A stretch of 64,000 nt of DNA from Pyrobaculum ferrireducens (GTDB taxonomy: Archaea; Thermoproteota; Thermoprotei; Thermoproteales; Thermoproteaceae): NCBI RefSeq assembly GCF_000234805.1, contig NC_016645.1:62001-126000 (forward strand), given 5' to 3'. The notes beneath the pieces were generated by a model. It did no database searches, was not told the origin of the DNA, and saw only the letters and a program-made list of their open reading frames with translations. Positions 47,569-50,480 of the stretch are shown here, one piece after another (positions within the stretch are counted from its first letter, which is position 1; each line of letters opens with the position of its first letter). Both the position numbers and the translations under genes were made by a program.

Positions 47569-47984
47569 ATGGCAGAGTCGAATTGAGGTTAAAAAGTGCA
47601 AAGATTTACAAAGTCGGGCCGTAAGAAGTGCCACCCCGCCTCATACGCCGATCCACTCTATGTAGTGTACAGCTCGGGTGGGAGAGTTGCCACCACAAAG
47701 TTACAACGGCGGGGCTGGTGCTCACTCGCTGAAGAGTCCGAGACTAATCTACACAGTGGAGAGTCTGCTGGGATAGAGATTTGGAGGCCTCCATCCCCGC
47801 TCTGAGGCTCGGGCTCTTAGCCCTTTTTAGGAGGCTGAGTGGAGTTGCTGATAAGCTAAATCTCTCTAAGCCGCGGCTTGTGTCGCGGCTAGGCAGACAG
47901 AGCCATTATCACATAAAGTAGCTAGACAGGAAACACACCCCTCTGGGCGAACCGAAAAAGTCGGATAGGCCTTTTTTAAAAAAG
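47569..47984. other. 416-base stretch without a recognised gene
   Basis: Short open frames exist on both strands, but none has a start with a promoter and protein-like length. I also looked for the conserved RNase P RNA motifs and found none convincing. A GC-rich stem is possible around 47870-47890 (GCCGCGGCTTGTGTCGCGGC). Probably decayed sequence between sufC and the exported-protein genes. Confidence 0.35.
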
Positions 47985-48794
47985 CTACTTGTCTCTACCT
48001 TGGCAGAGGTTTTTCTTCTCTATTAGGTATTTTTCGCCGTAGGTTACTCTTTTCACAACTACGGTTTTACCCTCTTCCCTATACTTCCATATGAGATCTA
48101 GGGGGGTGTCTACCATTAGTATCTCCGGCTTCTTCGAAAGGGCGTACAGCTCCCTGAGAGGAGCCTCCACTACGAAGGCGCCGACGTACACCTCAGCCAC
48201 GGAGCCGCCCACCTCAACAGCCTTAGTTATGTTGGGGGGCGGGGGCGTGCCGGTGCCGTTGTTGCTACGCCACCACTCTAGAAATAAGATGTGTCTACCC
48301 GTTGAGATTAGTGCAACCTCCCTTATCGACTTCAGCCACGCGTCGAGGCTATAGCCCTCCGGCCTAACGCTGTAGCCTAGCGATGTGTAGGTGCCGTTTT
48401 TGTAGTAGACGTAAGTCACAATTTCGACTATTTTGTCTGTAAGGCTGAGATTTTTAGCCAGCGTGGGGAACTCCTCTATTTGGTATATTCTGCACGGCAC
48501 TACATAGGCTTTATATGTTTCATTTCCATGTTTATCTAAAAGCCTCTTCCACCTCTCCCAGGAGGCTCTCCGCGCCTCTATGTATTTTACCGTTTTGTTA
48601 AAATCCCCGCCTATCTGGTAGGCGCTGGGGCCGTGTTTAATAACGACGTAAGGCCCAGCCATTACGACTTCATGCACCTCACCCAGCTCGTCCACCACTT
48701 TCCCCTCTCTTACGCCAGCCCCACCCACGCCCACGTAGATAGCCACGGTAGCTATAGCAAGCGCCATGAGTATGCCTAGATACCTTGACCTCAT
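47985..48794 (-). CDS. Exported or membrane-anchored protein of unknown function
   Basis: 269 residues. One hydrophobic segment near the N-terminus (LGILMALAIATVAIYVGVGG) is a signal anchor or signal peptide; the rest is mostly extracellular with Asn-X-Thr sites (NKT, NGT, NET) and a Pro-rich turn (GTPPPPNIT). The last part (WKYREEGKTVVVKRVTYGEK) is basic. No family recognised. Its ATG follows the downstream stop of the open tail of the 48955-49440 gene by one base, so the two are translated as an operon from the shared promoter at 49462-49487. Confidence 0.6.
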   Translation of the reverse strand: MRSRYLGILMALAIATVAIYVGVGGAGVREGKVVDELGEVHEVVMAGPYVVIKHGPSAYQIGGDFNKTVKYIEARRASWERWKRLLDKHGNETYKAYVVPCRIYQIEEFPTLAKNLSLTDKIVEIVTYVYYKNGTYTSLGYSVRPEGYSLDAWLKSIREVALISTGRHILFLEWWRSNNGTGTPPPPNITKAVEVGGSVAEVYVGAFVVEAPLRELYALSKKPEILMVDTPLDLIWKYREEGKTVVVKRVTYGEKYLIEKKNLCQGRDK

Positions 48795-48795
48795 A

Positions 48796-48954
48796 CTACC
48801 ACCCGCTAGATCCAGCTTTTGTATTGTAGCAAGCTAGTTCACACCACTCCTCCCACGGAGGTGGCGTAATAGTAGATGCGGGCTCCACCTCAGGCTCGAT
48901 ACGCATAGCGTAGTTTTCCTCTTTTTTAACTATGAAGTATGCATCTACATAATA
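48796..48954 (-). pseudogene. Open tail beyond the amber codon of the upstream exported-protein gene
   Basis: Directly after TAG 48955-48957 the same frame stays open for 52 codons (YYVDAYFIVKKEENYAMRIE through WEEWCELACYNTK to GSSGW), ending one base before the next gene's ATG. It could be the real C-terminus of the upstream protein behind a nonsense mutation or a read-through site, or a separate 36-residue protein from ATG 48906, which has TATA-like GTTAAAAAAG 15-24 bases upstream. Confidence 0.5.
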
Positions 48955-49440
48955 CTATGTATTAGTTTGTATATTCTGCGGGCTTTTTGTACCTATTTCC
49001 ACTTCTTCATTACACATCCTAGGCACAGCGTAACATGTCGGATCCCACCACCTCCACTCCTCTACATCTATTCTAACAGGTGAGGGGAGGTTAGTGAGGT
49101 AATTCCAGAAATCATAAACGTCTTTATCGGTACCATCGGTACAGCTCACGGTTCTGTAGAAGTCAAAGGAGAAGTAATTATCACTTGTAAAGTATTGAGA
49201 TTTTTTTGTCCAGAGATTATCGGTAAATATATAGTCTCTTTTTTGTCCACTTGAATCTGTGTAAGACCATTTGGAATGGTAGTATGACGAGGGATAGAAG
49301 TCTTCTGTATCGCATGCGCCAGCCGCACATGTATGTGAGGCAGTCGCTATTAACAGCAACAGTATAGCAGTCGCTAGCACCGCGCCACTCACCTTGATTT
49401 CTCTTTTGAGATACAGTCCCTTCAATAATCTATTTTTCAT
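48955..49440 (-). CDS. Secreted protein with in-frame amber codon
   Basis: 161 residues up to TAG 48955. A basic start and a hydrophobic stretch (VLATAILLLLIATASHTCAA) form a signal peptide; the mature part is aromatic- and Cys-containing (ACDTEDFYPSSYYHSKWSYT, later a Trp-rich EEWRWWDPTC), typical of small exported domains, family not recognised. ATG 49440 is fixed by TATA and the shared element at 49462-49487. See 48796-48954 for the open tail. Confidence 0.65.
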   Translation of the reverse strand: MKNRLLKGLYLKREIKVSGAVLATAILLLLIATASHTCAAGACDTEDFYPSSYYHSKWSYTDSSGQKRDYIFTDNLWTKKSQYFTSDNYFSFDFYRTVSCTDGTDKDVYDFWNYLTNLPSPVRIDVEEWRWWDPTCYAVPRMCNEEVEIGTKSPQNIQTNT

Positions 49441-49461
49441 AAATAGTTTTGAAACTTTATT

Positions 49462-49487
49462 TATATAAATTTAACTCAATACGAATC
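49462..49487 (-). promoter_or_regulatory. Shared promoter element (copy C)
   Basis: On the minus strand GATTCGTATTGAGTTAAATT runs into TTATATA, matching copies at 335-360 and 5095-5120 with one or two changes from copy B. With the preceding base A and C it gives the core ACGATTCGT palindrome. The ATG is 47 bases after its first base. Confidence 0.65.
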
Positions 49488-49799
49488 GTTTTCTTATCGC
49501 TGTTGATAGTCTATTCTCTCAAGCAGATACGTTACTGCCGCCAATGTACTCCATATTAACCGACATGGGAATGCGCTATTAGTTCTAGGGGTGTTGACAT
49601 TTGCACAAACTGCCATTACATATAACTAGAACCGCCCAATCCAAAATACCCAGTTTTATTTCAGTGTGGTGGGACTGGCTAGTTTCTGGAGATCTGGATT
49701 TGCATAATATCTCTCAGCTAAGCATGACCTGCCGCTATCCGCTTTCTTCGTGATGCCGTAGAATTTTGTTTGTAAAGAGCGTCTTTAGAAAGTTCATGA
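49488..49799. other. Spacer upstream of the PaREP2 debris
   Basis: About 310 bases with no credible gene. A 15-base match TGCCGCTATCCGCTT occurs at 49729-49743 and at 37676-37690 (the end of another exported-protein gene). The cause is unknown and it may be chance. Nothing else seen. Confidence 0.35.
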
Positions 49800-50480
49800 G
49801 TGAATACGCGCCGCTTTGAATATGTATGAGGAGGGAAAGAAGGTCGTCGCCGGTTTGGTTATTAAGAACCTATAGGGTTGCGGCGCTAATCGCAAGGCAT
49901 ATAGGGCGAAGCTCGTGGAGTGGCTGGGCTAGTGACCTAAAAGGGCGCCAAATATAACGGAGTTTGACAAAGACTCCTTTCCACACACTGGCGAACGTTT
50001 TCGGAATGCTGGCGGTAGCGAAGATGCGAGGAGATATGCAGTGAAGACGCCGTTCTGGGAGACGGGACTGTGAAGCGAGGGAGGTTTTGCTGTACGTCGG
50101 CGGCGGGAGGAGGGATAAGATGGCCGCCGAGGGGAAGGCGGCTCTCTACTACGCACTGCTGAGGGGGCTGGGTTACCGGCCATAGATGGCAAAAGCCAAA
50201 GATACCGTCCATATAAGACTGCACGGCGTTGAGGCTGGGCGCCTAGCTAGGGAGGCTCTGCCGTTTCTAATGGGGCTTGAGCATCTGCCGGAAGGAGTGA
50301 AAAGCGGCCGACAAATTTATTCTAAAGGTGGGTGAAGCTAATCGACAGTATAAGATGAAGAGGAGGACCAAGTTACAGTTCATAGACGACGCCTTAGACG
50401 CCCTCATGCGCCCAGAGCTGGTATGCAGAGCGCTGGGGTTGTGCCGCACCAGACAAGCTACTAGAAAGACTTATAGCTAG
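49800..50480 (+). pseudogene. Degraded PaREP2-like gene
   Basis: Several disconnected plus-strand pieces. GGGRRDKMAAEGKAALYYAL leads to LRGLGYRP and a stop near 50184; a short frame MAKAKDTVHIRLHGVEAGRL continues AREALPFLMGLEHLPEGVK; then RRTKLQFIDDALDALMRPEL ends VCRALGLC. The last matches the fragment at 12096-12272. Order and motifs fit a single PaREP2-type gene with multiple stops and frameshifts. The promoter of sufB (TATA-like GACTTATAGC, 50469-50478) overlaps its end. Confidence 0.6.

Follow-up and report, generated by a model that had tools for sequence, protein, structure and literature searches.

Ordinary prokaryotic pseudogenes that arise by a single nonsense mutation have, as is generally known, a frame that is conserved apart from a single early stop, and an intact paralogue present. 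Gene 1 of the window (the whole 64-kb stretch of DNA analysed here) shares both properties, and we see no specific difference that would set it apart from such pseudogenes. Its closest relatives are two full-length genes, one in Pyrobaculum oguniense TE7 (CP003316.1, L013:8001-8609) and one elsewhere in the same genome, the second copy (G000:C1:2142428-2143042). The P. oguniense gene resembles the window copy in its two-gene order, in the stop-T-ATG junction between the two genes, in its full-length frame and in protein identity (72-73%), but it reads TGG for TAG, does not adjoin sufB and sufC and has other flanking genes, among them a downstream frame that we take by eye to encode an S3-like ribosomal protein. 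The second copy likewise keeps the two-gene arrangement and a full-length frame, but it too has TGG for TAG and sits between genes named by eye as an ABC-transporter gene and a racemase-like gene.

The interrupted frame and its intact homologues

On the minus strand, ATG 49440 starts a 161-codon frame (49440-48958) that is closed by TAG 48957-48955; this 5' part of gene 1 (48955-49440) encodes a hydrophobic N-terminal segment and a cysteine-containing domain. Past the TAG this frame continues without a stop for 52 codons (48954-48799) and is closed by a further TAG at 48798-48796, the tail thus occupying 48796-48954, and the single base 48795 lies between that stop and ATG 48794 of a 269-aa frame, the partner gene (47985-48794, minus strand), which ends at 47985. 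The initial annotation had described one frame split by TAG, with a tail open to one base before the next ATG, and its coordinates are correct. A TATA-like A+T stretch, placed by eye at 49460-49475 of the minus strand, lies about 26 bases upstream of ATG 49440, a position that presumably fits leaderless archaeal transcription. The region 49447-49523, which includes it, has short matches of 78-85% identity at several sites in its own genome and in that of the nearest relative (G009), three of the own-genome matches falling between 2,362,814 and 2,369,513, and is perhaps a shared upstream element.

A homology search with the gene 1 frame including the tail, an X being put at the stop, recovered the second copy at 65% identity (query 9-214; L002/L010) and the P. 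oguniense gene (G005) at 72% identity (query 20-214), both without a stop. Matches to gene 1 occur in 2 of the 11 genomes of the genus and in 2 of 398 Thermoproteota genomes; 1 locus was confirmed among 111 candidate stretches in genome_contigs, a collection that may lack records from the genome of the window, and none of 96 candidates from the scan of viral_contigs was a relative of gene 1. The column of the in-frame TAG (48955-48957) is TGG, tryptophan, in both sequences, which are the only intact homologues and on which the sense codon rests, and one base separates the two codons. The TAG itself is conserved in neither. The suggestion that homologues might carry a sense codon at this place is thereby borne out, and the proposal of a nonsense mutation gains from it, since a stop at the same codon, which would have spoken against it, occurs in 0/2.

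Homology runs past the TAG in the same frame in both intact homologues; the tail is 0.83 identical to that of P. oguniense and 0.69 identical to that of the second copy and has two invariant cysteines, and the stop-T-ATG junction with the partner is identical in all three copies. Because the frame including the tail matches intact genes in its own genome and in P. oguniense, the tail is more than a chance extension, and on sequence comparison it is genuine coding sequence. Its length would not have sufficed for that conclusion. The window has 59 frames of 120 aa or more that do not overlap; at least 52 open codons follow 9 of them, including 5 of the 28 that end in TAG, and when the tail was shuffled 20,000 times, 812 of the resulting sequences were open. 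The earlier argument that so long an open tail is unlikely by chance is therefore weak if made from length, and the case for the tail must come from homology. Judged in that way, a chance extension, which the frequency of such tails in the window would otherwise favour, is refuted by the identity to two intact homologues over 52 codons, and we regard it as practically impossible.

No family above cut-off was found for gene 1 or the partner in Pfam or in NCBIfam; gene 1 had nothing above cut-off in PHROGs (best E 0.097), and a PDB sequence search gave a best E of 1.2 for gene 1 and no match for the partner. An AlphaFold2 model of the P. oguniense protein, made from a two-row alignment, had a mean pLDDT of 31.8 and was unusable for structure search. 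Each of the two proteins has a hydrophobic segment at its start, and gene 1 contains cysteines that are invariant, of which two lie in the tail; we infer from these sequence features that gene 1 probably encodes a disulfide-stabilised exported protein and that the partner (73% identical to its P. oguniense counterpart) may be membrane-anchored or exported. Elsewhere in P. oguniense, L009:2233-3010 seemingly encodes a trypsin-like exported protein split over two overlapping frames (TAGHC and GDGGGP by eye; Pfam Trypsin E 0.078), next to a 303-aa frame of exported look.

Constraint on the tail and the competing readings

In pairwise comparisons with P. oguniense and the second copy, the tail has a dN/dS of 0.12 and 0.14, respectively, and the body one of 0.18 and 0.09, with dS near saturation. 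On the window-copy branch, where changes were counted as bases unique to the window copy, we find 8 synonymous and 3 nonsynonymous changes in the tail, 12 and 17 in the body, and 40 and 18 in the partner. Some 77% of tail changes would be expected to be nonsynonymous without constraint, and 3 or fewer of 11 has a probability of P = 0.0007; the difference between tail and body is non-significant (P = 0.16). The 8 synonymous against 3 nonsynonymous changes therefore indicate that the tail was under constraint for most of the window-copy branch, until recently, and relaxed constraint after the TAG was not found on that branch. These counts do not support an old, decaying pseudogene and fit a change of recent date or an error in the assembled sequence. 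A constrained tail is, however, predicted alike by read-through, by a mutation that happened recently and by a wrong base in the assembly.

We consider it highly probable that a dispensable, duplicated two-gene operon has here either undergone a recent nonsense mutation from Trp to amber or been given a wrong base in the assembly. The second of these, in which the gene would be intact in the organism, is a minor part of that judgement and in itself rather unlikely. It would agree with the absence of relaxation in tail and partner on the window-copy branch and with the single base that separates the TAG from the homologues' codon, but the assembly consists of one contig and is 99.97% complete, and finished genomes seldom contain single-base substitution errors. 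The initial annotation had also offered a separate small gene starting at ATG 48906 (48904-48906, minus strand), from which the tail would be translated on its own as a 36-aa protein. A purine-rich stretch does precede this ATG, but the codon aligns with an invariant methionine that lies inside the frame in each of the three copies and starts a frame of its own in neither homologue, and the bases upstream of it code for a conserved part of the frame in the homologues; we thus hold a separate product to be very improbable, and that proposal is not upheld.

Equally improbable, in our estimate, is that programmed or suppressed read-through of the TAG yields some full-length protein, although the coding tail is conserved past the stop and its distance to the partner ATG is conserved as well. 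The TGG in both homologues argues against a common recoding signal, and TAG serves as a normal stop codon in the window, where it is the commonest among the stops of the 59 long frames (TAG 28, TAA 24, TGA 7) and is followed by a median open extension of 15 codons, compared with 23 after TAA. A search of the genome for the pyrrolysyl-tRNA synthetase PylS reached 18.8 bits, the cut-off being 178.15, so that none passes; 13 of 14 control genomes also gave matches, only 1 of them above the cut-off. Pyrrolysine recoding was accordingly rejected, with PylS below the cut-off and TAG present in 0/2 homologues. Among 37 hits to tRNAs we recognised no CUA anticodon, although about a third of the hits, including intron-bearing tRNAs, were left unnamed or only partly resolved by ARAGORN; a pattern check for CUA matched in 6 of the 37 loci, and by eye these matches fell in flanks, in a TCT anticodon or elsewhere in the tRNA. 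For comparison, 47 tRNA genes are given for P. oguniense in the abstract of PMC3558965. The terms stop codon, nonsense and frameshift are absent from that paper, and titles and abstract openings of the literature on read-through or stop codons and on pseudogenes or nonsense in Pyrobaculum contained nothing bearing on the locus. Read-through, if true, would account for the undecayed tail, and an amber codon at a former tryptophan site would then be partly read through in a hyperthermophile, preserving the full-length protein and its coupling to the partner; we think this scenario very doubtful. An ordinary recent loss-of-function mutation remains the most likely explanation over any unusual reading of the code.

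Genomic setting of the operon

The operon sits between two divergent genes, sufC and sufB, whose products we take to be SufC and SufB, the ABC ATPase being assigned from Pfam. It lies on a segment of about 2.87 kb (47598-50463) that is missing in the nearest relative, in which the alignment stops at window position 47597 and restarts at 50464, leaving 8 bases in between that do not align, and the flanks are 96-98% identical. Clear terminal repeats were not seen on the segment. In all 7 further loci of the genus that were compared, sufC-like DNA is found 35-658 bases away from sufB; in P. oguniense, a DNA comparison of the 5.3 kb before sufB revealed no sufC. The segment also contains, at 50047-50347 of the plus strand, a fragment of a repeated sequence of about 300 bp that is found in its own genome and in the nearest relative at 70-76% identity and is broken here; it matches 8 other places in its own genome, one of these incompletely, and over the same part 4 in the nearest relative. 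Assignment to a named repeat family was rejected, as two fuller copies gave no Pfam family.

At the locus of the second copy, the nearest relative is collinear, and there gene 1 is gone and all that is left of the partner is a broken stretch of 177 bp. This decayed remnant (L011:2194-2370) has a TAA and small deletions. Another genome, G018, retains a partner fragment of 29-31 residues. Taken with the missing segment, these remnants lead us to infer that the gene pair has been duplicated, moved and lost often, a background against which a nonsense mutation would be unremarkable; the operon appears dispensable.

Consequences of the interruption

Gene 1 heads a two-gene operon that encodes two probably exported proteins and is found in Pyrobaculum only. 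If the preferred reading of a recent nonsense mutation is right, a TGG tryptophan codon of gene 1 would have become TAG in the window copy, recently relative to the split from its homologues. Translation would then end after 161 residues, and the last 53 positions, two conserved cysteines among them, would be lost, leaving a truncated protein without one probable disulfide region that probably does not fold as before. The start of the partner, normally one base past the stop of gene 1, would no longer be reached by the terminating ribosome and would need to be used independently. Export of the proteins is presumed, as are the loss of function, a compensating role of the second copy and the lost translational coupling. 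The partner gene looks intact. A tail without signs of decay and a seemingly constrained partner (40 synonymous to 18 nonsynonymous changes) stand as a counterpoint to loss, both being also expected if a full-length product is made.

As an ordinary recent gene break, the locus is useful chiefly for annotation, where it should be treated as one interrupted gene rather than two, and the operon should be annotated as a patchy, duplicated and repeatedly lost gene pair of Pyrobaculum.
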